From NCBI RefSeq assembly GCF_030733545.1, contig NZ_JASHIU010000012.1, forward strand, positions 1 to 64,000: a stretch of 64,000 nucleotides of DNA, written 5' to 3'. The position numbers and the translations under genes are program-made. A model generated the notes under the pieces. It was given only the letters and a program-made list of their open reading frames with translations, was not told where the DNA came from and searched no databases. Shown in pieces: positions 6,337-64,000 of the stretch; positions within the stretch are counted from its first letter, which is position 1, and every line of letters starts with the position of its first letter. Source of the DNA: Oceanicaulis sp. MMSF_3324 (GTDB lineage Bacteria; Pseudomonadota; Alphaproteobacteria; Caulobacterales; Maricaulaceae).

Positions 6337-7439
6337 GCGTCTTACGCGTGATCGAAGTCGAGGCCGCTTCCCGAACCTACGAGGTGGTGATCGGGCGGGA
6401 CGCCCTGTCGAGCCGCGCCGACCGGCTCTCAGTCCGCGCGCCGCGTGGTCGGGCCGTCGTCGTGGCGGACACGGCAGCGCTGTCCCATCACGCCACGCGC
6501 CTGCATCAGGCGTTCGACGCCGCCGGCCTGGGTCTTGAGATCATCGAGATCGAGGGCGGGGAAGGCGCCAAGACCTGGACCAGCCTTGAGTTCCTGTGTG
6601 ATCGGCTGCTCGCGCTTAATGTCGAACGCTCCGAACCGGTAATCGCCTTTGGGGGCGGCACGGTGGGAGATCTGACCGGGTTCGCGTCGGCCATTCTCAA
6701 ACGCGGCACGCGCTTCATCCAGATCCCCACCACGCTTCTGGCCCAGGTCGATAGCTCGGTCGGCGGCAAGACCGGCATCAACACGAGCCATGGCAAGAAC
6801 CTGATCGGCGCGTTTCATCAACCCGATCTGGTGATCGCCGACACGGCCTTTCTCGACACCCTGCCCCGGCGCGAAGTGCTGGCGGGCTATGCCGAGATCG
6901 TCAAGGCCGGCCTGATTCAGGACGCTCCGCTGTTTGACCGTCTGGAAACGCAGGGCGTGGATGCGGTGACTGGCGACGGTCTCGTCCAGGCCATTGCAGA
7001 CGCGGTCGCTTTCAAGGCGCGGATCGTGGCGGAAGATGAACGCGAGAGCGGCGTGCGGGCGCTGCTCAATCTGGGGCACACCTTCGGGCATGCTTTTGAG
7101 GCCGAAGCGGACAAGGGCGCGTTGATCCATGGCGAAGCGGTGGCCTGCGGCCTCGCCCTCGCCTTCCGTTATTCCGCGCGGCTGGGCGCCTGCTCATCCA
7201 AGGACGCCGAGCGTGTAGCGCGCCATCTTCAGACCGTGGGGCTACCGGCCCGCATTTCCGAACTGCCCGGCGGGCCCTATGATGCGGCCCGCTTGCTCTC
7301 GCGCATGGGTGATGACAAGAAAAATTCAGGCGGCGCGATTACCTTGATCCTGGCGCGCGGGATCGGCGACGCTTTCATAACGCGCGAGACGGATCGGGAT
7401 GATCTGGCGGCGTTTTTGTCCAGTGAGGTTGAGGACTGA
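6333..7439 (+). CDS. aroB: 3-Dehydroquinate synthase
   Basis: A 368-residue enzyme converting DAHP to 3-dehydroquinate, with NAD and a divalent metal. Visible motifs are the NAD-binding FGGGTVGDLTGFASAILKRG, PTTLLAQVDSSVGGKTGIN, the metal-ligand segment LNLGHTFGHAFEAE and the C-terminal GDDKKNSGG. Length is typical. It overlaps aroK by 4 bases and the next gene by 1, so the three genes are one transcription unit. Confidence 0.97.
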   Translation: MSVLRVIEVEAASRTYEVVIGRDALSSRADRLSVRAPRGRAVVVADTAALSHHATRLHQAFDAAGLGLEIIEIEGGEGAKTWTSLEFLCDRLLALNVERSEPVIAFGGGTVGDLTGFASAILKRGTRFIQIPTTLLAQVDSSVGGKTGINTSHGKNLIGAFHQPDLVIADTAFLDTLPRREVLAGYAEIVKAGLIQDAPLFDRLETQGVDAVTGDGLVQAIADAVAFKARIVAEDERESGVRALLNLGHTFGHAFEAEADKGALIHGEAVACGLALAFRYSARLGACSSKDAERVARHLQTVGLPARISELPGGPYDAARLLSRMGDDKKNSGGAITLILARGIGDAFITRETDRDDLAAFLSSEVED

Positions 7440-8725
7440 TGACTTTCGAACCATGGATGGCGTGGACCGGTTTCGGCATTTTGTGCCTTCTGGCCTTTTC
7501 CGGGTTCTTCTCAGGCTCGGAGACCGCCCTCACCGCCACCTCCAAGGCGCGGATGCTGACCCTTGAAAAGGAAAAGGATCATCGCGCCCGCCGGGTGAAC
7601 CGTCTGATCGATGACCGCGAGAGCCTGATCGGCGCGATCTTGCTCGGCAACAATCTCGTCAACATCCTGGCCGCCTCACTGGCCTCGGCCGTGTTCCTCG
7701 CCATGTTCGGCGAAGCCGGCGTGCCCATCGCGACGCTGGTGATGACCTTGCTGGTGCTGATCTTCGCCGAAGTGCTGCCCAAGACCTATGCGCTGTCCAA
7801 TCCAGACCGCATGGCGCTCTTCGTCTCCCTGCCGATCCGCATGTTCGTTCTGGTGTTCGCGCCCGTCGTCGCCGCCGTTCAATGGCTGGTCCGGGTGACG
7901 CTGCGCATACTGGGTCTGTCGGTGGAAGGCCCGGTGCTGTCCGCCCATGACGAGATTCGCGGCCAGATCGACCTGCACCACCAGGAAGGCGGCGTGGTGA
8001 AAACCGACCGCGACATGCTGGGCGGCGTGCTCGACCTGCGCGAGCTGACGGTGGATGACGTGATGGTTCACCGCAAAAGCCTGATCATGTTCGACATCGA
8101 CCAGCCCGCCGAGCAGCTGGTCGCTGATGCCTTAAGCTGCCCGCACACCCGTTTGCCGCTGTATCGCGACGACACCGAGAACATTGTCGGCATCCTGCAT
8201 GTGCGCGATCTGGCGCGAGAGCTTCACAATGCCGGCGGCGACGCCAGCAAACTCGATATCGAGGCGATCAAGCGCGAACCCTGGTTCATTCCCGAAACGA
8301 CCGAGCTGCTCGAACAACTCACCGCCTTCCGTCAAAAGCGCGAGCACTTCGCCCTTGTGGTGGACGAGTATGGCGCGCTGATGGGCGTTGTGACCCTAGA
8401 GGACATCATCGAGGAAATCGTCGGTGAGATCGAGGACGAGCACGATGTCACCGTCGAGGGCGTCACGCCCCTGCCAGATGGCTTCATCCTGGTGGATGGC
8501 GGCGCGCCGGTGCGCGATGTGAACCGGGCGCTCGACTGGGAACTGCCCGATGACGAGGCCGTCACGATCGCCGGCCTTGTGATCCATGAAGCCCAGACCA
8601 TTCCTGAAGCCGGGCAGATCTTCCGCTTCCATGGGGTTCAGTTCGAAATCCTCGAGCGTCGCCGCAATCAGATCACCCGCATGCGCCTCAAGAAGGAACC
8701 CGAGGCGACCGAGGATGACGATTGA
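7439..8725 (+). CDS. CNNM/CorC-HlyC family membrane protein with CBS domains
   Basis: A 428-residue inner-membrane protein. The N-terminal DUF21/CNNM domain has several transmembrane helices (residues about 10-150) and the signature FFSGSETALTATS. A CBS pair (about 205-330, with VVDEYGALMGVVTLEDIIEE) and a C-terminal CorC_HlyC domain (about 345-415) follow. Relatives act in Mg2+ and Co2+ homeostasis; the haemolysin name is historical. The ATG overlaps the aroB stop by one base, and this aroKB-CorC-bolA order recurs in alphaproteobacteria. Confidence 0.9.
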   Translation: MTFEPWMAWTGFGILCLLAFSGFFSGSETALTATSKARMLTLEKEKDHRARRVNRLIDDRESLIGAILLGNNLVNILAASLASAVFLAMFGEAGVPIATLVMTLLVLIFAEVLPKTYALSNPDRMALFVSLPIRMFVLVFAPVVAAVQWLVRVTLRILGLSVEGPVLSAHDEIRGQIDLHHQEGGVVKTDRDMLGGVLDLRELTVDDVMVHRKSLIMFDIDQPAEQLVADALSCPHTRLPLYRDDTENIVGILHVRDLARELHNAGGDASKLDIEAIKREPWFIPETTELLEQLTAFRQKREHFALVVDEYGALMGVVTLEDIIEEIVGEIEDEHDVTVEGVTPLPDGFILVDGGAPVRDVNRALDWELPDDEAVTIAGLVIHEAQTIPEAGQIFRFHGVQFEILERRRNQITRMRLKKEPEATEDDD

Positions 8726-9001
8726 TCAGGCGGCTTCGCCGGGTGTGCGGGCCATGATAGCCAAGGCGTGAACCTGGACTTTCAGTAGTTCATCAAGGGC
8801 CTGGTTGACGAGACGGTGGCGCTGGACGCGGGTCTGGCCTTCAAAAGCGCTTGAGACGATCTCGACGGTGAAATGGCTTTCCCCCGCCCTCGCCTGCTCG
8901 GAATGACCGGCGTGAAGCGCGCTGTCATCGGTGATGACAAGGCTTTGCGGAGCCAGCGCCGCGGTCAGGCGATCCTCGATTTGCTGCTTTACGCTGGACA
9001 T
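8726..9001 (-). CDS. bolA: BolA family protein
   Basis: A 91-residue BolA, partner of monothiol glutaredoxins in Fe-S trafficking and iron sensing. The core has the BolA fold with HFTVEIVSSAFEGQTRVQRH, including the conserved His, then RLVNQALDELL. The ATG at 9001 (MSSVKQQIEDRL) fits the family. Its stop abuts the convergent CorC-family gene with no spacer. Confidence 0.92.
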   Translation of the reverse strand: MSSVKQQIEDRLTAALAPQSLVITDDSALHAGHSEQARAGESHFTVEIVSSAFEGQTRVQRHRLVNQALDELLKVQVHALAIMARTPGEAA

Positions 9002-9053
9002 TGTCATCCTCTGTTTATTGTTCAGCAGGCCGGTGCGCCCCATACTTAGGCAC

Positions 9054-9686
9054 ATGGATGGCGCTTACAAATATCGACCGCGGTTTAAAGACATCCGCAT
9101 CAAGCCGCCCAAGAACGAGGCGAAGCAGGATGAGAAGGTGTGCGAGCACCCTCAATGCCGCGCCAAGGCGACCGCGCGTGCGCCCAAAAGCCCCGCCAAT
9201 CGCAGCGAGTTCTACTGGTTCTGCCAGTCCCACGCCGCCCAGTACAACAAGGAATGGAATTTCTTTGAGGGCATGAGCGAGGATGCAGCCAAGGCGCACG
9301 CCGAGGCTGATTTCTATGGTCACCGTCCGACCTGGAGTTTCGCATCCGGGTCTAGCGCACGCCGCGCGGCGCAAAAGGCCAGCCAGAGCTTTGAAGAGGG
9401 CTTCGTTGATCCGTTCGACCTGTTTGGCGACCGTCCGCCGCCAGGTCAGGAACGCGCCCAGCGTGAATACGAAGACCCCAATGCCGGCATGGGGCGACTG
9501 CAGAAGCGGGCGCTCGATACCCTCCAGCTAGACCCCAAGGCCGACAAAGCCGCCGTCCGTCGACGCTATGCCGAGCTGGTTCGCCAATACCACCCGGACT
9601 CCAATGGCGGCGATCGGTCGATGGAAGAGCTGTTGCAGAAGGTGGTCGAGGCGTATCAGATCCTCAAAAGCTGCGGCATGGGCTAA
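9054..9686 (+). CDS. C-terminal J-domain protein
   Basis: A 210-residue protein. The first 130 residues hold cysteines and histidines (CEHPQCRAKA, FYWFCQSHAA) that could bind metal. A J-domain occupies roughly 145-208, with the Hsp70-stimulating HPD in VRQYHPDSNGG. It is expected to be a DnaK co-chaperone of the small class seen beside bolA in Caulobacter relatives. The ATG at 9054 is chosen; longer frames run into the divergent bolA start region. Confidence 0.85.
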   Translation: MDGAYKYRPRFKDIRIKPPKNEAKQDEKVCEHPQCRAKATARAPKSPANRSEFYWFCQSHAAQYNKEWNFFEGMSEDAAKAHAEADFYGHRPTWSFASGSSARRAAQKASQSFEEGFVDPFDLFGDRPPPGQERAQREYEDPNAGMGRLQKRALDTLQLDPKADKAAVRRRYAELVRQYHPDSNGGDRSMEELLQKVVEAYQILKSCGMG

Positions 9687-55359: not shown

Positions 55360-55776
55360 TTATTGCGTCCGCGTCACATACGGCATGGGCGCTGCGTTAT
55401 AGAGTTCCGGTCCGCTGAAAAACCCGTCCATGACGCAGCGCGCCAGCACGCCTTCACCGACGGGGATATCCGGCCAGGGGTCACACCGGGTCTGGCGGTC
55501 ACCGAGATCCCCGCCGCGCTCAAAAGTCAGTGTGATCGCACTGCCTTCACGCTCCCATCGCACGGGCGCGCCATTGGGGGCGCCGTCATCGCCCAGCTGT
55601 CCGGCGCCGGACATGGCGCCCCCTTCAGCCGGCTCAAAGACCAGAGGCAGCACATCAAGATCGACACCGACCGTGTAGCTTTTCCCGGCCGGGGTCATTA
55701 CGTCGTCCTGCCCCAGGGCCGGACCCGCCAGGCACGTTGCGACCGCCACTGCGGCGGCAAGGGTAATGCACTTCAT
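55360..55776 (-). CDS. Small secreted C-W-P-V-G-C family protein, copy 1
   Basis: A 138-residue exported protein with a signal peptide (about residues 1-22, ending ALGQ). It shares the core C98-x2-W101-P-x3-V-G107-x6-C114 with four other proteins in the window, and ends VTRTQ. The N-terminal region after cleavage has the shared G-x-x-Y-x-V pattern (AGKSYTVGVD). Function is unknown. The ATG at 55776 is chosen because it begins the signal peptide. It lies downstream of the M61 peptidase gene. Confidence 0.7.
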   Translation of the reverse strand: MKCITLAAAVAVATCLAGPALGQDDVMTPAGKSYTVGVDLDVLPLVFEPAEGGAMSGAGQLGDDGAPNGAPVRWEREGSAITLTFERGGDLGDRQTRCDPWPDIPVGEGVLARCVMDGFFSGPELYNAAPMPYVTRTQ

Positions 55777-55849
55777 CAGGTCTCTCCCGCTATGTGTGTC
55801 CAGAGCCTGACCCCATGAGGTTAAGATATCGACCTGCGTCGGCTCGCCC

Positions 55850-57337
55850 CTACTGGCTCGCCGTGTAGAAGCCGCTCTCCGAATCAAGCGTCAGGTTCGG
55901 TGTGCGCACGCGATCAGGCAGCTCCAGCGGACGCCCCTCCTCGACAAAGGCGCGCATCTCCGCCGCCAGGGTCGGGTCGGCCTGTTCCTCGATCCATTCG
56001 TAAACCCGCGACACGTCCGGGCGCTCTGCGCCGTTCTCGCGGGCTTCGCGCGACAGATCGCGCATCAGATCATCCAGGCCGACTGCCCCGTCCGTGCGGG
56101 CTTCCAGAGTTTCATTGAGCATGAGGGCGATCAGCTCGCCGCGCGTATAGCTCATCATGGCGCGCTCATCATTGACGGCCCAGAGTTCGGCCATCTCTTC
56201 ATGGGTGAAGTCACGATGATCCGCCTCGCGATAGGCGTTGATCGCCGCATTCAGGGTCTCAGCGTATTTGGCGTCGTCATAGAGCCCCGAACGCCAGGCC
56301 ATCTCCCGCGCATAGTAATTGGTGAAGCCTTCAACGAACCAGCGTGCGCCATGAGGGGCGTCGCCGTCTGCCAGAAAGAACAGGACGCCATTCCAGTTAT
56401 GGAAGTACTCGTGCGCCACCACATCCTGAAGGCTGGGATGGATCCAGGCGCCGTCCGGCCCCAGTGACAGATCCGGGCTGAAATAGAGGGCAAAGGCATT
56501 GGTGATCGCGGTCCCGCCGAGCGCAAAGCCGTTCTCCACCACCTCGCCCGCCGCGCCATAGGCGATGAAATACCAGTCGCCGGCTTCCGCAGCGCCTTCA
56601 AACAGGGCGCGGGTTTCAACAAGCGCCGGCTCGATCAGCTCCAGAAGCGCGTCAGGCTCCTGCGGCGTTCCCGGCATGGGCAGGGCGCCCAGCTGCGCCC
56701 CGTCTTCCAGCGTATGGACCACACCTCCAGGACCCGCCGCAAACAGGCTTTCAGGCAAGCGCGTCTGGGTCAGCGTGACCGACAACGGACCCGCGCCGGG
56801 CCCGAACGGGGAAAAGGCCCGCCACCCCTGCGCCTCAATACCCGTCCATTGCGTGGAGAGCGTCAGGCTGCCCCCCTCCTCATGCACGATATGGGTGGGC
56901 AGGAAGACCGAAATGCCGGTGTAGAAGGCGACGCCCTCAGCGCTGATAACGGGCTGGTACTGATCCACGTCAGACAGGGCGCCCGCGCCCTGATGCAGCT
57001 GATAGTGCAGCGTGATGCGATCAGACGGAGCGTGAGATACCGTGACGGTCAAAGCCTGCGGATCAAAGCGCGCTTCACACGTTTGAGAGCACACGACGTC
57101 GAAATCGGAGAACCAGTCCGCTTCAGGAAAGGTGAATCCAAAATCGCGATCGAGATCGAGCACGCTCTCTCCCGACGCCGTCCCTGCAAAGCTGACCGCA
57201 ACGCCTAAAGATCCATCATTGGAGACATCAAACTCGAGCGCGAGATCCGCTTGGTCTGGCGACGGCGCAGCAACCGGGCTGCACGCCGTCATCATCCCCG
57301 CGGCGATCACCGCCGCAACCCTACCCCATACCATCAT
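55850..57337 (-). CDS. M61-like aminopeptidase lipoprotein
   Basis: A 495-residue lipoprotein with lipobox M-T-A-C (Cys19). The zinc motif is HEYFHNW (residues 309-315), with the third ligand Glu at about 336 in RWFVEGFTNYYA, as in M61 glycyl aminopeptidases. The N-terminal half is beta-rich, as in that family. Two Cys (83, 87) may pair. The ATG at 57337 follows a GGGGGG site; an in-frame ATG at 57349 lies before it. It is 21 bases downstream of the S9 peptidase. Confidence 0.85.
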   Translation of the reverse strand: MMVWGRVAAVIAAGMMTACSPVAAPSPDQADLALEFDVSNDGSLGVAVSFAGTASGESVLDLDRDFGFTFPEADWFSDFDVVCSQTCEARFDPQALTVTVSHAPSDRITLHYQLHQGAGALSDVDQYQPVISAEGVAFYTGISVFLPTHIVHEEGGSLTLSTQWTGIEAQGWRAFSPFGPGAGPLSVTLTQTRLPESLFAAGPGGVVHTLEDGAQLGALPMPGTPQEPDALLELIEPALVETRALFEGAAEAGDWYFIAYGAAGEVVENGFALGGTAITNAFALYFSPDLSLGPDGAWIHPSLQDVVAHEYFHNWNGVLFFLADGDAPHGARWFVEGFTNYYAREMAWRSGLYDDAKYAETLNAAINAYREADHRDFTHEEMAELWAVNDERAMMSYTRGELIALMLNETLEARTDGAVGLDDLMRDLSREARENGAERPDVSRVYEWIEEQADPTLAAEMRAFVEEGRPLELPDRVRTPNLTLDSESGFYTASQ

Positions 57338-57358
57338 GTCGCCCCCCATCGGTTCGCC

Positions 57359-59335
57359 TTACTCGGCGGCCTCGACATCCAGAACATCTTCGAGGAATTC
57401 GGCCTGTCGACGATAATAGAAGAGCTGGTTGGAGAGCTTGCGCCAGCCATGCCCTTCATCGGGAATGCGGATGAAATCCGCCCGGACGCCGTTCTCGCGC
57501 AGGGTGCGCACCATCACCTCGGTTTCATAGATGTCGATGCGCGGATCCATGACGCCGTGGGAATACAGAACCGGCACATTGATCTGGTCCGCCTGACGGA
57601 TCGGCGAATTCTCGGTGTAGTAATCGCGCCAGCGCTGTTCGGTGATGTCGCCGTATTCGATACGGTCAGACGCCTTGAGCGCCGGGGATGCAATCTCGAG
57701 CGCCGTCACCCAGTCCGCCACGCCATAAAGCGCCGCGCCCGCCGTGAAGTGCCCGGGGAAGTTCGCCAGCACCGCATTCACAGCATAACCGCCATAGGAT
57801 CCGCCCACGACGGCGGCGCGGTCCGCGTCCACCCGACCGTCTTCTTCCAGCCAGTTGAGCATGTCCACGAGGTCGGCGATGGATTCAAGCCGATTCTCGC
57901 GATCATCGAGCGTCACATAGGTATGTCCGAACCCGGTCGAGCCGCGCACATTCGGTTCGAACACCGCCATGCCGCGATCCACATGGTACTGCACCACCGC
58001 ATCAAAGGTCGGGCGGGACTGGGACGTCGGCCCGCCATGGACGAAGAACACCACCGGCGGCAGCCGGTCATCCGTGCGCGAGCTGTCGTCAGGCAGATAC
58101 AGAAGACCTTGCAGCTCGACCCCGTCGCGCGCGGTGATCCGGACATCTTCGGGCCGCACCAGACGGTCCGCATCGAGCCCCGCCATGGAGGCGGAGAAGG
58201 TGTCGAACACCTCACCGGTCTGCATGTCCCAGAGCTGGAAACCGCCCGGCGTGCGCCAGCCGTTGACATTGATCAGCACCCGGCTGGACTGATCCGTGCA
58301 GCTGATGCCGTACACGCCTTCGACCAGGTCAGGCGTTTCGATCGCCTCGCCGGTGCTCAAATCGCGGGCGTGGAGCCGGGAATAGCCCCCTTCATTGACG
58401 CTCCAGACCAGATAGCGGTCATTGGCGCCGCACAGATCCACGCCCTCGATGTCATGTCCGACGCTTTCGATTACATCAAAGCTGTTGGTGAAGACGTCAT
58501 AGCGCATCAGGGCGCTGTATTCGCGCTCCCGGTTGGAGACCAGGTAAAAGCCCGAGGAGTCATCGAGCCAGCTGACCGAGCCATGCGCGGCGCGGCGCTC
58601 TGGCGCTGAAATCTGGGTGAAGGCGCCTGTCGCCAGGTTGAGAAGCCCCAGATCGTCGGAATCCTCGCCGCGGGACTGGCTGACGGTGACGAAGCGGCCA
58701 TCGGGCGAGATCGCACCGGGATAGTTTGCGTAAGACCCCTCATAGACCATTGACCGCTCGCCGGTTTCCAGATCGGCGGTGTAGATGTCGAAGTCGAGAT
58801 TGTTGCGCGCTGTGGAGGCGAAGACGATGGTCTGACCATCCGCGCCGAAATCGCCGAACACCCGGAAGGCGCCCTCTTCCGCCGGAAAAACCTGCTCTTC
58901 GCTCAGGCCATCTGCGGAGATCCGATAATAGGCTTCCTGCTCATTGCCGTCATTGTCGGCGCCATAGATCAGGCTGTCGCCATCGGGCGTCCAGCGAAAG
59001 AAGGTGATGCCATTGCCATAGGTCAGACGGGTGGGCTGTCCGCCCTCTGCGTCCATGATCCAGAGCTGGGGTTCGCCGGTAATCGACCAGCGGAACGCGG
59101 CTTTGGACCCATCGGGGGAAAGCTGTGCGCCGCCCGCCGCGCCATTGGCCGCCAGCAGGTAGCGTGCGATGTCCGCCGGATCTTCCCCGGCCAGGCCAAT
59201 GCTGACCGCTTCATCAGTGGGCGAAACCGCTTCCAGGCTCTCATCATAGCCCGACTGGCCGCCTGCCGTCTGGGCGAACGCCGAAGCGCCCATGAGCGTG
59301 GAGCCTGCAAGCAGGACTGATAGCAAATGTGTCAT
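57359..59335 (-). CDS. S9-family prolyl oligopeptidase-like peptidase
   Basis: A 658-residue exported serine peptidase with signal peptide (1-21, ending AFAQ). An N-terminal beta-propeller (about 65-385, with repeats such as AQLSPDGSKAAFRW and FRWTPDGDSLIYG) is followed by an alpha/beta hydrolase domain. The catalytic Ser513 is in GGSYGG, Asp near 593 is in HGVMDPRID, and His near 628 is in DEGHGW. It is likely a periplasmic dipeptidyl or acylaminoacyl peptidase. It forms a unit with the M61 gene. Confidence 0.9.
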   Translation of the reverse strand: MTHLLSVLLAGSTLMGASAFAQTAGGQSGYDESLEAVSPTDEAVSIGLAGEDPADIARYLLAANGAAGGAQLSPDGSKAAFRWSITGEPQLWIMDAEGGQPTRLTYGNGITFFRWTPDGDSLIYGADNDGNEQEAYYRISADGLSEEQVFPAEEGAFRVFGDFGADGQTIVFASTARNNLDFDIYTADLETGERSMVYEGSYANYPGAISPDGRFVTVSQSRGEDSDDLGLLNLATGAFTQISAPERRAAHGSVSWLDDSSGFYLVSNREREYSALMRYDVFTNSFDVIESVGHDIEGVDLCGANDRYLVWSVNEGGYSRLHARDLSTGEAIETPDLVEGVYGISCTDQSSRVLINVNGWRTPGGFQLWDMQTGEVFDTFSASMAGLDADRLVRPEDVRITARDGVELQGLLYLPDDSSRTDDRLPPVVFFVHGGPTSQSRPTFDAVVQYHVDRGMAVFEPNVRGSTGFGHTYVTLDDRENRLESIADLVDMLNWLEEDGRVDADRAAVVGGSYGGYAVNAVLANFPGHFTAGAALYGVADWVTALEIASPALKASDRIEYGDITEQRWRDYYTENSPIRQADQINVPVLYSHGVMDPRIDIYETEVMVRTLRENGVRADFIRIPDEGHGWRKLSNQLFYYRRQAEFLEDVLDVEAAE

Positions 59336-59415
59336 GGAAATCCCCGATCTTCGCGTCTGACCAGAAGTGTATGGCCAAATGCGAGGATCGGGAAGTTGTC
59401 CCCATATAACGCGCG

Positions 59416-60444
59416 CTAGAAGCCGTAGAGCAGCGACACGTCCAGCCGCGTATCGGTGGGTTCAAAGCCCGGCTCGGTCTCGAACTCATGCTCGATATGC
59501 AGACCGGTCTGAACCGCCCAGTGTCCGAACAGCCGGTTGGTCAGCGTGAAGCGCTGATCCACCCGTGAGCCGCCTCCGCCATAGACTGTGGTCTTGGACT
59601 CAAACCGGCTGGTCTCGCTGATCTGGAAGGTGAAATCAGACGCCGCCTCGGCCACCCAGTCATTCAGGGTTACACCGCTGCCGGCCCGTTCGCGCCAGCG
59701 GTGACCGGCGCCGGCGCGCAGTTCCAGATTGACCCGCTCGCCGTCAATGGCATGCCAGACCCCGCCCGCCGTCGCGAAGGCGGATTGTTCATAGGCGCCG
59801 ACCAGATCGCGTTCATAGGAACCACCGGCGTAATAGCCGAAGCCCGAATCCAGCGCCCGCGACACCCGGCTTTCGACCAGCCAGTTGTCCCGGCTCGTCC
59901 GGTCGCCGTTTTCGGTGAGGAAGTACTCAAACTGGTTATCCACGCGCCAGCCATGGGGCAGCTCCCGATCCAGTTCGAACGCGAACGAGAAGTCCACAAG
60001 GTCGGTATTGCCATCCTCGACCTGGACGCCGGCGCGGATCTGCCCGGACCATGCCTCGCCCTGCAAGGCGCGGATCGGAGCGGCGAGCCATCCGCCCGAC
60101 CCTTCGGGCGCACCCGACAACGCCACCGGAGCGCCTCCGATGGAGCGCGGTTGAGTTTCGGGTTCCGGCTCGGGCTCAGGCTGCGGTTCGGGGTCCGGCA
60201 AAGGCCAGTCGCTCAGCGCGCTTGCGCGATCGGGCAGATGAGCCAGCACATCCGCATGAACCGCCGCGCGCCCGCCCTCGACCAGCACGGCGACCATATC
60301 GGCGGTTTCCACAAAGCGCGCTTCATCAATGCCGCGCCGATCCGCTTCCGCGAGCAGATTGCGGTATTCAGGCGGAATGTCGGCAAGGGCAGGCGCGGTG
60401 AAAGCGGCCAGAGCAAGGGCCAGGGCGCTGGTGCGAAAGGTCAT
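59416..60444 (-). CDS. DUF481 outer-membrane protein
   Basis: A 342-residue protein with signal peptide (1-21, ending ALAD). A helical N-terminal part (25-75) and a Pro/Glu linker (PLPDPEPQPEPEPEPE) lead to a DUF481 beta-barrel (about 130-342): GQIRAGVQVEDGNTDLVDFS, then LTENGDRTSRDNWLVESRVS and RLDVSLLYGF with a terminal Phe. DUF481/YdiY proteins are salt-stress-linked outer-membrane barrels. Confidence 0.88.
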   Translation of the reverse strand: MTFRTSALALALAAFTAPALADIPPEYRNLLAEADRRGIDEARFVETADMVAVLVEGGRAAVHADVLAHLPDRASALSDWPLPDPEPQPEPEPEPETQPRSIGGAPVALSGAPEGSGGWLAAPIRALQGEAWSGQIRAGVQVEDGNTDLVDFSFAFELDRELPHGWRVDNQFEYFLTENGDRTSRDNWLVESRVSRALDSGFGYYAGGSYERDLVGAYEQSAFATAGGVWHAIDGERVNLELRAGAGHRWRERAGSGVTLNDWVAEAASDFTFQISETSRFESKTTVYGGGGSRVDQRFTLTNRLFGHWAVQTGLHIEHEFETEPGFEPTDTRLDVSLLYGF

Positions 60445-60515
60445 AAGTCATCCTGATCACGGCGGGTGATTAACCGTGTTTGTGACCTAGACGCCTTTAG
60501 ATTTCGTTCAACCGT

Positions 60516-60914
60516 CTATTGGATCCGCCCGAACCAGCCATCGGGCTCGTCTCCGGTCCACCAGCAGGGCAATTGGTCGTAATAGTCACCGACCTCAAGC
60601 GCAGGCCAGCGCTCACATCGCGCACTGTCGGTTCCCGGAGCCAGAAGCGGCAGGTCTTCGCCCGTAAGGGTCACAGCGCCATCGGGGTCCATCATCCACT
60701 GCCCTTCATTGCCCTGGGCGAAGGGCGGGTGCAGACCGTTGAAGCCCACATGAAACGAGCCATCCGCGTCAAAACTGACCCGGTAGCCTTCATCACCGCC
60801 CGGAGAGCCCATCTGATAGACCTGACCCGCTGGCGAAGGGGCGTCCTCGGCTATGGCGACAGGCGCCGCAAGCACCATAAGGGCGGGCGCAAGGCTCAAC
60901 AGGGCCAGCTTCAT
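60516..60914 (-). CDS. Small secreted C-W-P-V-G-C family protein, copy 2
   Basis: A 132-residue exported protein with signal peptide (about 1-22). The core is C100-E-R-W103-P-x3-V-G109-x7-C117-W118, and the end is WFGRIQ. After the signal, AGQVYQMG and YRVSFDADGSFHVGF form the shared beta-rich front. Only the two family cysteines are in the mature chain. It starts 2 bases after the stop of the thioredoxin-like gene, so it is in that operon. Confidence 0.7.
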   Translation of the reverse strand: MKLALLSLAPALMVLAAPVAIAEDAPSPAGQVYQMGSPGGDEGYRVSFDADGSFHVGFNGLHPPFAQGNEGQWMMDPDGAVTLTGEDLPLLAPGTDSARCERWPALEVGDYYDQLPCWWTGDEPDGWFGRIQ

Positions 60915-60916
60915 GA

Positions 60917-61843
60917 TCAGTGTTCCTCGTGTCCGGCAGCATCACCCGCCATGGCGGCGCGCGTCTCTTCGATCTGGGCTTCAAACCGGGCGAGCAGATC
61001 GAACTCGATCTCGGCGACGCGTAAGATGACCGCATCGGTCAGATCATCTGACGGCGTCACGCCGAGCGCGTCCAGGTCGGCCCGGTCAGCAACAGCCAGG
61101 CCCTGCGCTTGCGCCTCCTGACCCGCCCCGTAGCGGGCAATGGAGCGGGCCATGCCTGTGGCATAGGCGTGCTGGCTTGCTGCGTGTTCGGCGCTGATCT
61201 CACCGTTTTCACGCTGGCTGGCCAGCGTCTGCATGGCGGTCTGATAGGGCGGCCAGTTGGCAGCGACCGCGCTCAGATCGGCGCTGGCGACGGGCGCGCC
61301 ATTCCAATCGAGCCCGCCATACCGGCTGAGATAGGCGGCGATATCCGAGGGCGCCGCGTTATAGGCGGTGCGCCAGTCATGGGCGGTGGCCCCGTTCAGG
61401 GCCGCCCCGTCTTCCTGCGCGATCACGACCGTCGGCGTGCCGAAACTAGCCGCGAGGCCAAAGCGTTGCAGCTGGTCCTGATTGCGGTGGCGCTGGCCCA
61501 CATCGACACGAGCGAGGACGTAATGATCCGCGATCAGCGTCGAAAGCCGGTCATTCTCGTCCAGCGTTTCGGCCAGGCCCACGCTGTCATGGCACCAGTC
61601 TGCGCCAAAGACGATAAGCGCCAGCTTGCCCTCGTCCTGCGCTTGCGCCAGCGCGGCGTCTATGACGGCAGCGGCGTCCGCGTCCTGAGGGTAAAATGTT
61701 GTGTCGTGGGCGTCTTGCGCCCGCGCCATGGCGCCCAGCAAAACCAGCAGAATCGCTGCAAGATAAAAGGCCGCTTTCAAGCTCAACCCGTATTCCGCCC
61801 CGTATGGTCGGTCATGGCCCTGACGGGCGTGAATGGCGCTCAT
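60917..61843 (-). CDS. Thioredoxin-fold protein with a single cysteine
   Basis: A 308-residue protein with an N-terminal membrane or signal helix (about 20-42, AAFYLAAILLVLLGAMARA). The thioredoxin-like part (about 55-175) carries FGADWCHDS where CxxC would be, and the cis-Pro segment GTPTVVI. The second Cys is Ser and no other Cys exists in the protein, so it cannot form an internal disulfide. The C-terminal half is Ala-rich and helical. It lies between copies 3 and 2 of the secreted family with 1- and 2-base gaps. Confidence 0.7.
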   Translation of the reverse strand: MSAIHARQGHDRPYGAEYGLSLKAAFYLAAILLVLLGAMARAQDAHDTTFYPQDADAAAVIDAALAQAQDEGKLALIVFGADWCHDSVGLAETLDENDRLSTLIADHYVLARVDVGQRHRNQDQLQRFGLAASFGTPTVVIAQEDGAALNGATAHDWRTAYNAAPSDIAAYLSRYGGLDWNGAPVASADLSAVAANWPPYQTAMQTLASQRENGEISAEHAASQHAYATGMARSIARYGAGQEAQAQGLAVADRADLDALGVTPSDDLTDAVILRVAEIEFDLLARFEAQIEETRAAMAGDAAGHEEH

Positions 61844-61844
61844 C

Positions 61845-62246
61845 TTATTGTGTCCGTCTGACGCTATAGCTGTTTGCATCGACCCAGCAGACATCAGAGC
61901 GCACCTCGCCGACCATCATTTCAGGCCAGGCGTTGCAATAGATGTCTTCGAAATAGACCGGCCTGACAGCTGATTCCACATCGAACTGAACCGAGTACTC
62001 CGTCAGAGTTAGAAGCGCCGACCCCGAAATATTATTCATGGAATCACGGGCCCCGCTGCACTCCATACTGCCCATCAGGATATCATCCGGCCCCGTCTCG
62101 TCCTCGAACCGGAGCACGCAATCAAGCCAGTTATCGATCTCGATAGTATAGCCGTGTCCGAGCGGATATTGAGGCGCGGCGTCTTCGGACGCATCAAGGC
62201 CCGCCAGGGCCAAACCGCTCACCAGGACAATGATGTTTGCAATCAT
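61845..62246 (-). CDS. Small secreted C-W-P-V-G-C family protein, copy 3
   Basis: A 133-residue exported protein. The hydrophobic leader is short (about 2-16). The core is C104-N-A-W107-P-x3-V-G113-x6-C120-W121, and the chain ends VRRTQ. Two more Cys (43, 63) match positions 44 and 62 of copy 4, so these two form a subgroup with a likely second disulfide. GCGGAGA precedes the ATG. It is 1 base upstream of the thioredoxin-like gene. Confidence 0.68.
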   Translation of the reverse strand: MIANIIVLVSGLALAGLDASEDAAPQYPLGHGYTIEIDNWLDCVLRFEDETGPDDILMGSMECSGARDSMNNISGSALLTLTEYSVQFDVESAVRPVYFEDIYCNAWPEMMVGEVRSDVCWVDANSYSVRRTQ

Positions 62247-62261
62247 GACTGTCTCCGCAAT

Positions 62262-62354
62262 CTATTCAAAAAAGTCTGTCTTATGAGCTGCCCAATGGGC
62301 CTGACGCCCTAGCCAGCGATTAATAAGGGCGTCAAAGGCCGGATCGGATTTCAT
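62262..62354 (-). CDS. Possible 30-residue microprotein
   Basis: A frame from ATG 62352-62354 to TAG 62262-62264 encodes a Trp- and His-containing peptide beginning MKSDPAFDALINRWLG. AGGG lies a few bases before the ATG. It fills part of the 197-base gap between copies 4 and 3. The frame stays open back to the copy-4 stop region and could use an upstream GTG (about 57 residues). Nothing is known like it; a chance frame is possible. Confidence 0.35.
   Translation of the reverse strand: MKSDPAFDALINRWLGRQAHWAAHKTDFFE
62298..62340. repeat. Inverted repeat inside the gap of the secreted-family operon
   Basis: TGACGCCCT (62302-62310) pairs with AGGGCGTCA (62326-62334). GGCC at 62298-62301 and 62337-62340 extends it with a 2-base bulge. 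The loop is 15 bases. There is no T-tract, so it may be an RNA processing or stability hairpin within the operon. Confidence 0.5.
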
Positions 62355-62443
62355 GATGCCCTGACCCTTCGATACAGCAGACACAGGCGCTTGAAAGCCA
62401 GCCAGTCGTCGCACCCCTCGAAACGAGCGGGCCACACCCTGGT

Positions 62444-62857
62444 TTATTCAAGCCGTGAAATGGCCTGGACCGAGTCATCGCTGATCCAGCAAACCTCGGT
62501 CGCGCTGTCGCCGACCGCGATCGGAGTCCAGCTCTCGCATTCACTTGCAAAGAACTGCGAGGCCCCGCCATCTCCCTGGTACGCGCCATCCGCCACAAGG
62601 GAGTTGAAAATGACCCACTGGCCCAGAACCGACCAGCGCGCCACACGGCCCGTGAGTCCCACAGTGGATGTGCAGGTGGCGTAGATCGAGCCTGCCCCCT
62701 CCCCTTCACCCATGAAGTGGAACCGGCACAGCTCCCCGCCATACAGGGTCACCGCATAGCTCAGGCCATCAAGATCCGGCGCGGGGGCCTCCTGCGCCAG
62801 CGCAACAGCGGACACAGACAGGCCGACAGCGGCGATCATCGTCACATAGCGTTTCAT
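62444..62857 (-). CDS. Small secreted C-W-T-V-G-C family protein, copy 4
   Basis: A 137-residue exported protein with signal peptide (about 1-21, ending ALAQ). The core is C107-E-S-W110-T-x3-V-G116-x6-C123-W124, with Thr where others have Pro, and the chain ends ISRLE. C44 and C62 are the extra pair also seen in copy 3. DGLSYAVTLY is the shared front strand. It begins 4 bases after copy 5. Confidence 0.7.
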   Translation of the reverse strand: MKRYVTMIAAVGLSVSAVALAQEAPAPDLDGLSYAVTLYGGELCRFHFMGEGEGAGSIYATCTSTVGLTGRVARWSVLGQWVIFNSLVADGAYQGDGGASQFFASECESWTPIAVGDSATEVCWISDDSVQAISRLE

Positions 62858-62861
62858 GGCC

Positions 62862-63275
62862 CTACTCCACCCGCGTGGCGGAATCGAGCTCAAGGCCCGC
62901 GCCCGCGCCATGGCCCAGCCAGCACAGCGCGCCCGCATCCAGGGACTCGCCCACGGCATAGCCCGGCCAGTCGCCGCAAATATACGTCAGCTCGCCCTGA
63001 TCGCCGGTATAGGTGAAGGTTATCTCGTCTTCGCCTGTGCGCACCCAGTTGCCCCAGCCCACGCCCGAGGGCGGCCAACTGATCCCGAAAATCTCGCTGG
63101 CGAGCGCCGCATCAAGCTCCATCGAGCCATCGGCATGGATAGTCAGATAGCCGTCCATTCCCGCCGAAATGCGAAACCGGCCTTCAGGGTCAGCGGCGTG
63201 TGCGCTTGCGGTTGCGCCGAGGGAGAGAACGCTCGCGGCCAGACCGGCCGTCGCGGTTTTCAGGAATACTGTCAT
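62862..63275 (-). CDS. Small secreted C-W-P-V-G-C family protein, copy 5
   Basis: A 137-residue exported protein with signal peptide (about 1-27, ending ASAHA). The core is C100-G-D-W103-P-x3-V-G109-x8-C118-W119, and the chain ends ATRVE. The front has EGRFRISAGMDGYLTIHADG. Only two Cys are present in the mature chain. It is the first gene of the operon, and a promoter should lie in the 187-base divergent gap before the HTH gene at 63463. Confidence 0.7.
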   Translation of the reverse strand: MTVFLKTATAGLAASVLSLGATASAHAADPEGRFRISAGMDGYLTIHADGSMELDAALASEIFGISWPPSGVGWGNWVRTGEDEITFTYTGDQGELTYICGDWPGYAVGESLDAGALCWLGHGAGAGLELDSATRVE

Positions 63276-63462
63276 GGCTGTCCCCCTTTGCCCGTTTCGC
63301 AGAGCCTGCGCGATGAGGGATGAAGGGGGCGTGAATGGGGCCGCGCCTTGTGCCTGCAGCCTGGCCTTGGCATCCTGCTGTCGCCTTCCTGTCGTGGGCG
63401 ACAGGGCGCTGAAACGCTAGGTCATCCAGGCCTTTGGGCGAGAACAGACAGGACTCCCGACG

Positions 63463-63912
63463 ATGAATCACACTCACGGCCTGCGCGCGCTGCGCCTGGA
63501 CAAGGGCTGGTCACAGGAACAGCTCGCTGCGATCAGCGGGTTGAGTGAACGCACCATCCAGCGCGCCGAACGCGGGGATACGCCCAGCCTCGACACCGTC
63601 GGGGCGCTGGCCGCCAGTTTTGACCTGTCCTCCGCCCAGATGCGCGACATCATCCAAGCGCCCCAGGAGGCCCCTGACATGACCGAAACCGCTTCATCCG
63701 CCTCATCCGCCACACCTGTGCTGACCGCCCCGCGCAAACGGGTCCTGCTCTGGTCCGCGATCTATGTGGGCGTGCTGACCTGGCTGGGCCTGATGGTCGC
63801 CTTGCTGGGCTGGGACCCCGAAATGATCGGCTTTGTCGCCCTGGTCGGCGGCGGCCTTCTGGGCCCTTACGCCGCCATGCAACTCATCCAGACCGGCGAC
63901 AGCGACACCTAG
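63463..63912 (+). CDS. Membrane-anchored XRE-type HTH protein
   Basis: A 149-residue protein. The helix-turn-helix is at residues 5-58 (LRALRLDKGWSQEQLAAISG, LSERTIQRAERGDTPSL). After a Ser/Thr/Ala linker there are two transmembrane helices (about 94-114 and 119-142). HTH-2TM proteins can regulate from the membrane. It is divergent from the secreted-family operon and could control it, though this is only positional inference. The rest of the window (63913-64000) shows no gene. Confidence 0.8.
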   Translation: MNHTHGLRALRLDKGWSQEQLAAISGLSERTIQRAERGDTPSLDTVGALAASFDLSSAQMRDIIQAPQEAPDMTETASSASSATPVLTAPRKRVLLWSAIYVGVLTWLGLMVALLGWDPEMIGFVALVGGGLLGPYAAMQLIQTGDSDT

Positions 63913-64000
63913 CGCGGGCGGGACAGCCTGACGTCAAGGATGTGCGCTCGCGTCGAGGCTTTGGCGCGGGCAATGCGAAGGACGCACAAAAAAGGCCGGG

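Follow-up and report, generated by a model that had tools for sequence, protein, structure and literature searches.

Why should a bacterium keep, in one string of genes, five small proteins that diverge over most of their length and share a two-cysteine motif and an Arg-x-[Gln/Glu] end? The question is raised by Oceanicaulis sp. MMSF_3324 (contig NZ_JASHIU010000012.1), of which we analysed a stretch of 64,000 nt, called the window below; all five genes lie on its minus strand and are numbered P0001-P0005. They form one old family, and the reading we prefer, plausible if somewhat short of probable, is that their products are exchangeable partners of the DUF481 outer-membrane β-barrel protein encoded in the same gene string.

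The five open reading frames (ORFs), of 132-138 residues each, were found where the original prediction had placed them, and their N-termini, as judged by eye, resemble signal peptides. P0005 (62862..63275, minus strand like the others, 137 residues, ending RVE) has two Cys in its mature part; P0004 (62444..62857, 137 residues, RLE) and P0003 (61845..62246, 133 residues, RTQ) have four each. P0002 (60516..60914, 132 residues, RIQ) is the nearest of the five to the short form described below and was chosen for modelling, and P0001 (55360..55776, 138 residues, RTQ) lies 3' of the DUF481, S9 and M61 genes. All five carry the motif C-x2-W-[PT]-x3-V-G-x(6-8)-C, which differs from the version first proposed in the spacing between VG and the second Cys, given there as x(5-8). 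The other predicted features, a Trp directly after the second Cys in four proteins (Val in the fifth) and the five endings, were confirmed.

One divergent family

Columns kept in a five-way alignment are limited to P, G, C-x2-W, VG, C and the final R, and BLAST matches among the mature parts are marginal (best E 2e-4). A profile built from 60 relatives, with the window and the loci of two genomes, G007 and G008, held out and short forms from other genomes of the same genus kept, nevertheless found all five window proteins (E 4.5e-16 to 1.1e-6), while the best of 2000 shuffled copies reached E 5.3. Because the held-out profile recovers all five and the shuffled copies are not recovered, the likeness reflects real homology and not a chance motif. 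HHalign matched the five to 21 short forms, with no sequence in common, at a probability of 98.4% (E 8e-15), and the alignment ran to the last residues. Both comparisons support the earlier suggestion that P0001-P0005 are one old, divergent family. The five-row profile detected one additional match at E ≤ 10 in the organism's own genome, a partial one (E 0.011) to an ORF that lacks the motif, and thus no convincing sixth copy was found there with this profile.

Sequence comparison brought out two points beyond the original prediction: the family extends to other genera, and it includes a shorter form in which the partner Cys is another one. A search with the five sequences matched 19 of 61 genomes at E ≤ 0.1, the organism's own included. 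Wider searches detected it in the bacterial family (32 of 137 genomes; alignment A3, E ≤ 0.001, where a weak match in G017 is probably false), in the order (35 of 348; alignment A4, E ≤ 0.001) and in the class (9 of 385; short-form alignment A2, E ≤ 1e-4). The genera that matter here are Oceanicaulis (g1), which belongs to Maricaulaceae, and Maricaulis (g9), named as the records are labelled.

From the window and 39 of 40 fetched stretches of 9-20 kb (the fortieth overlaps the window and was left out) we collected 73 intact members. The last profile round gave 80 ORF matches, of which seven were removed before counting: two pieces of a broken P0002 orthologue and a P0001 orthologue ending RQA, all three in G007; a fragment in G012 (L040); and three matches that do not resemble family members. 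We call a member long if it has a Cys after the invariant Cys and short if it has none, so the informative count is that of the Cys before the invariant one; 47 members are long and 26 short. Family matches read later and standing outside the 73 comprise two long forms (G113:C212 and G123:C146) and several short forms, and the later-read matches in G017, G126 and G008 were not family or gave no match. Cys-less relatives may be under-collected, because the collecting profile contains the Cys columns.

The original prediction knew of no described family with this pattern, and the libraries searched (Pfam, NCBIfam, PHROGs) agree, no cut-off being reached. For the five, neither Pfam nor PHROGs gave a match at E ≤ 1 and NCBIfam gave one, at E 0.11. 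The 21 short members scanned against Pfam and NCBIfam and the 17 long ones scanned against Pfam gave matches of E ≥ 0.015 only, short of any cut-off. Ten distant relatives had sub-threshold Pfam matches, some of them lipocalin-like, and a sequence search of the PDB found no solved structure at E ≤ 1. This is an undescribed alphaproteobacterial family of small exported proteins, predicted to be all-β, with paired Cys.

We also noticed a wide alphaproteobacterial group of short secreted proteins (L163, L164, L178-L191) with the elements GNTV..., LC...C and VGDSW, often ending AGR. The last 100 residues contain exactly two Cys in every match read, and seven of its proteins reached no cut-off in Pfam or NCBIfam.

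Linkage to a DUF481 barrel gene

The minus-strand gene string runs from members 5, 4 and 3 through a thioredoxin-like gene and member 2 to the DUF481 gene, an S9 peptidase gene, an M61-like peptidase gene and member 1. The DUF481 protein (59416..60444, minus strand; PF04338, E 1.2e-41) has 342 residues and a C-terminal Phe, and its gene is the conserved partner of long-form arrays. Its orthologues, at 62-87% identity, occur in 15 of the 137 genomes of the bacterial family, the window's own included: 3 of 15 Oceanicaulis and 12 Maricaulis. The next DUF481 proteins are at most 47% identical.

Fourteen of these 15 genomes have a long-form array beside the DUF481 orthologue. In the fifteenth, G125, only 14 bases of contig follow the DUF481 gene, and the A3 search gave no family match. 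The nearest array gene lies upstream of DUF481 on the same strand, at -39 to 829 bp in 12 loci and at 1.5-1.8 kb in two; in G007 this nearest gene is a broken copy. Elsewhere among the 137 genomes the family matches read were short forms or false, and those read in the 12 of 15 Oceanicaulis genomes that lack the orthologue were short forms. The 47 long-form genes divide into 39 that stand at the DUF481 locus, one that lies at a contig edge, and seven in other places of Maricaulis genomes that have the module of DUF481 gene and array. Since, among the close relatives searched, the arrays were found only in genomes with this DUF481 orthologue, we suggest that the two work together, and we infer a physical partnership.

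Cysteine patterns and the two forms

The invariant Cys is present in 73 of 73 members (alignment A4); in P0002 it is Cys76 of the mature protein (codon 60615..60617, minus strand). In the mature parts we found three patterns around it: one Cys before and none after (26 members), none before and one after (31), and two before and one after (16). Thus all 26 short members have exactly one Cys ahead of it, the 47 long ones have none or two, and each long member has a single later Cys, at the partner position. In P0002 this is Cys93 (60564..60566, minus strand), immediately before the conserved Trp94. No intermediate pattern was seen, and the number of Cys is even in 73 of 73 members, which makes the disulfide first proposed between the two motif Cys very probable.

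Relatives outside the 73 were read as well. Short-form-like rows from other genomes and orders number 31, or 29 distinct ORFs, and each of them has exactly two Cys among its last 100 residues. In G313, from another family of the order, three long-form relatives (G313:C4, L161; 5790-6287, 6251-6688 and 10003-10482; ends RTR, RRQ and RVE) have four Cys each; within the last 100 residues they number 4, 4 and 3, and the third protein has its remaining Cys further upstream.

The short form has about 90 mature residues and a consensus near GPxGxxY...FxxDGxY...GxWxxxxxxLC...C-x2-W...VGES...W..DGS..xITR[IV]E. It is homologous to the long form, with P-x-G-x-x-[YFW], G-x-W, the invariant Cys, VGE and Trp in common; its Maricaulaceae members usually end R-[IV]-E, and the predicted order of strands is the same. 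The two forms differ in that the short one has its partner Cys before the invariant Cys, in strand 5, is shorter, and lay away from DUF481 in the loci read. With strand positions taken from the models, the short-form pair Cys46/Cys60 would face each other across the hairpin of strands 5 and 6, and the long-form partner Cys would sit just before the Trp that follows strand 7. The disulfide seems, therefore, to have switched partner within the modelled fold, from strands 5-6 in the short form to strands 6-7 in the long form. That the short form occurs across a wider range of taxa suggests an older origin for it; the tree itself is midpoint-rooted and drawn from few columns.

Predicted fold

AlphaFold2, run with alignments of 73 and 42 rows, predicted all-β structures without any helix for both P0002 (mean predicted local distance difference test score, pLDDT, 87.0; predicted template-modelling score, pTM, 0.80) and a short relative (pLDDT 94.7, pTM 0.81). 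Eight strands were predicted in the short model and seven of at least three residues in that of P0002. Foldseek comparison of both models with the PDB gave a best E of 0.057, with TM-scores up to 0.50, and a viral structure library gave a best E of 0.033, to a phage lipoprotein. The best-ranked PDB rows included LTBP1 (a tick lipocalin), a pneumococcal lipocalin lipoprotein, TP0435, a Shewanella lipoprotein and YedD/LptY, alongside unrelated folds, neurexin and phospholipase among them. With reserve, these rows point weakly to a calycin-like fold.

No curated lipocalin-type Pfam model matched the five at E ≤ 1; some short forms had sub-threshold matches to DUF4923, GH43_C and Lipocalin_4, and the 17 long members had one sub-threshold Pfam match, to Myosin_N. 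A further trait was compared across the 73 members. In calycins, a Lys or Arg of the final strand is described as stacking by cation-π interaction on a Trp of the first strand (PMC2954199). An Arg at position -3 and an aromatic residue in strand 1 occur together in 52 members and are both absent from five; 13 have the aromatic residue without the Arg and three the Arg without the aromatic residue (Fisher p 0.019, uncorrected for kinship). The aromatic residue is mostly Tyr or Phe, and Trp in three. The association is consistent with a barrel latch without being proof of one.

LptY/YedD, the NlpE N-domain and TP0435 are small barrels, as is predicted for our family, and stand among the Foldseek rows shown at E 0.077 or worse. 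They differ from the family, which is arrayed and divergent and has no sequence match in the PDB. The NlpE N-domain protein and TP0435 are lipoproteins. So is LptY (PMC12644819), whereas a canonical lipobox, [LVI][ASTVIG][GAS]C, was absent from the first 35 residues of all 73 members (start codons were assigned by a simple rule and by eye).

Array turnover

Intact copies number from one to six per locus. In the tree, members group by subtype and not by genome, and several subtypes are common to both genera, which argues that the window's five are old duplicates. The window stretch 61694-62860, which includes members 3 and 4, has no DNA match in G007, although both flanks match. In G007 the orthologue of member 2 is broken and that of member 1 has a frame that enters a different C-terminus (L035 7741-8214 and 11648-12045); both are probable pseudogenes within the array. 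The two intact orthologous pairs tested have ratios of nonsynonymous to synonymous divergence (dN/dS) well below 1: the orthologue of P0005 in G007 is 87% identical with dN/dS 0.24, and that of P0003 in G008 is 67% identical with dN/dS 0.13, at a dS of 1.8 that is near saturation. Neighbouring genes range from 0.05 to 0.36.

Identity between the window and G007 is 92% from member 5 through the XRE gene (89% when followed through thiC) and 83% over DUF481/S9. Likewise, dS is 0.29 and 0.11 in the flank at 62861-64000 and onward, against 0.65-0.82, as if the flank from member 5 to XRE had recombined recently. One array-gene pair of G008 and G110 is 81% identical, where their DUF481 genes share 64% and thiC 85%; two other pairs share 56% and 46%. 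Since only one pair is that similar, we do not claim transfer of array genes across genera. A SnoaL/NTF2-like secreted protein gene, recognised by eye, occurs in or beside some arrays (L036 9404-9910, L089 8959-9358, L099 5612-6061, L095 8530-8874); the DNA of its G008 copy shares 80-83% identity with two Maricaulis loci and 71% with a third, above the 67-69% of the DUF481 gene.

A viral or plasmid origin was considered and rejected. Queries with A2 and P0002 found no relative in viral contigs, and the DUF481 protein had just two matches on plasmids, at 28% identity.

Proposed role and alternatives

If the array proteins are exchangeable partners of the DUF481 barrel, the locus may work as follows. 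The five genes are a locally variable array coding for proteins of about 110 mature residues that have no canonical lipobox and are predicted to be all-β and closed by a disulfide. The products would be exported by Sec, oxidized in the periplasm and folded to small calycin-like barrels, and each mini-barrel would serve the DUF481 barrel as an exchangeable partner subunit, be it an adaptor, a plug or exported cargo. The sets would differ between genomes because the ligand or threat that is met differs. The terminal Arg-x-[Gln/Glu] would be the end of the last strand, probably helping barrel closure.

Several observations weigh against this proposal. Of the 47 long-form genes, seven stand away from the DUF481 locus. 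Of the two long forms read later, G113:C212 is without a DUF481 match over its 4 kb, and G123:C146 sits on a 3.1 kb contig with an XRE gene. The three long-form genes of G313 surround a TonB-receptor-like ORF (identified by eye; 6795-9071, 758 residues), and no match to the window DUF481 protein was found in 12 kb of that locus. The 14 linked genomes are not independent, because the linkage rests on two genera. In addition, P0002 is the one window protein of the five that was modelled, and the fold matches are weak, with every Foldseek E above 0.03 and no TM-score over 0.50.

A related possibility, which we regard as rather doubtful, is that the DUF481 barrel carries the mini-barrels to the surface or the medium, in the manner of type 11 secretion (T11SS) through DUF560 proteins. 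The genetic logic is the same, an outer-membrane barrel gene co-occurring with small barrel genes, and variable arrays would fit surface exposure. From its sequence, the window DUF481 protein has an N-terminal extension and a Pro/Glu-rich linker before its barrel. The T11SS predicted cargo proteins are described as having a C-terminal eight-stranded barrel in common and as encoded near the barrel gene, so that there, too, genes for small β-barrel domain proteins lie close to one for an outer-membrane barrel (PMC12282271). The systems differ, however, in the barrel itself (DUF481 here, DUF560 in T11SS), in the lack of a separate effector domain in our family and in export, which is putative here. 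DUF481 is a different barrel family, listed with 12 strands as TC 1.B.75 (PMC4827864), and the partner protein had no match to any DUF560 model at E ≤ 1 in a scan that covered 10 proteins, all from the window. No secretion signal was noticed beyond the Sec-like peptide. Short-form relatives exist without a DUF481 orthologue and thus need no such exporter.

Immunity or decoy proteins would be another explanation for small sets that vary in this way, protecting against bacteriocins, phages or predators for which the DUF481 barrel is the receptor. The arrays are patchy and divergent, with different sets per genome; G007 has broken copies, and genes for helix-turn-helix (HTH) proteins are neighbours at some loci. 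We consider this role unlikely, as PADLOC matched neither the five nor the DUF481 protein, two queries found no relative in viral contigs, and dN/dS is well below 1 in the two intact pairs tested.

Terminal residues

The shared C-terminus was originally read as a fixed recognition tag, and all five window proteins do carry Arg-x-[Gln/Glu]. In P0002 the codons for Arg-Ile-Gln are at 60519..60527 (minus strand), and the final β-strand of the model ends with this Arg; the same holds for the Arg three from the end in the model of the short relative. Conservation in homologues is partial. The exact R-x-[EQ] end occurs in 44 of 73 members (24 of 47 long, 20 of 26 short), against 8 of 447 background ORFs, or 7 of 444 after removal of three family ORFs; the other 29 members lack it. 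The comparison puts the shared end beyond chance; its background consisted of mechanically chosen, non-overlapping ORFs of at least 200 residues from the window and the 39 fetched stretches, some of which will be spurious.

A tag for a sorting or export machine would draw support from the Arg at -3 being present in 29 of 39 DUF481-linked long forms and in none of seven unlinked ones, and the later-read G113:C212 and G123:C146 also lack it. The seven unlinked rows, however, fall into two tree groups, one of six rows, and so represent few events. Ten of the 39 DUF481-linked long members lack the Arg and 16 lack the exact end, whereas 19 of 25 short forms from genomes without a DUF481 orthologue have it. 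Because the tail would end the last strand and is found in these 19 short forms, the Arg-x-[Gln/Glu] end is better taken as structural than as an obligatory tag. A recognition tag is thus quite improbable, and of the two reasons originally offered for keeping the duplicates, structure and sorting, structure is the better one.

Neighbouring genes

The S9 prolyl-oligopeptidase-family gene (57359..59335, minus strand) is at the locus in the three Oceanicaulis genomes that have the module and has no match in the Maricaulis module loci; the M61-type peptidase-like gene (55850..57349, minus strand) has no match in those Maricaulis loci either, nor in the G007 and G008 loci. Both are outside the conserved link. 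Inh (PF02974) is a small barrel of similar size, exported to the periplasm. We rejected the idea that the array proteins are periplasmic, Inh-like inhibitors of these peptidases, a very remote prospect, because the peptidase neighbours are not conserved: the genes share a string and one distant short-form relative has a sub-threshold Inh match (E 0.023), but the five, which lack any Pfam match at E ≤ 1, and the members of A2 and A3 have no Inh match, and no row named Inh was among the 50 Foldseek rows shown for either model.

The thioredoxin-like protein (60917..61844, minus strand; Thioredoxin_7) probably starts at an ATG at 61844, the longest ORF starting at 61894, and has W-C-H-D-S, with one Cys instead of CxxC. 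A 49%-identical copy lies between a major facilitator superfamily (MFS) gene and thiC, two ORFs on, in G010, an Oceanicaulis without DUF481, S9 or array genes, and this gene therefore probably belongs to the older locus and not to the module. thiC, named by eye, is just past the window edge; eight fetched loci, from both genera, have it there too, on the opposite flank of the array. On the plus strand, a divergent neighbour (63463..63912) codes for an XRE-type HTH protein with a hydrophobic C-terminal half, as judged by eye. Its relatives are in or beside the module in G007, G109, G115 and G124, and also near thiC in G116, which has no module. A defence system was rejected, PADLOC matches being limited to HTH-containing models for this XRE neighbour. 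In six Maricaulis loci (L037, L088, L089, L092, L095, L098) a second, more divergent DUF481 gene, 34-45% identical to that of the window, lies downstream.

Implications

Precedents for pairing a small barrel with an outer-membrane barrel are offered, by analogy, by T11SS (PMC12282271) and by LptY, which is described as an eight-stranded, lipocalin-like barrel whose two Cys are positioned to form a disulfide, and as a binder of the LptD translocon in the outer membrane (PMC12644819). In the tests made here, neither came out as related. A bolder picture, to which we give a low probability, is that of a new two-part outer-envelope system of Maricaulaceae, in which a DUF481 barrel would export or display swappable mini-barrels and an old alphaproteobacterial periplasmic fold would have moved its disulfide between neighbouring strands on recruitment.

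The family offers a clean natural case of a disulfide that seemingly changes partner within one fold. It also illustrates that a conspicuous C-terminus common to several proteins can mark the point where a β-strand ends instead of being a tag. The literature searched says little on DUF481, which is named in 17 papers, at most three times in each, and in no title or abstract. A variable set of small exported proteins that co-occurs with one DUF481 barrel would thus be a direct handle on what that barrel does.

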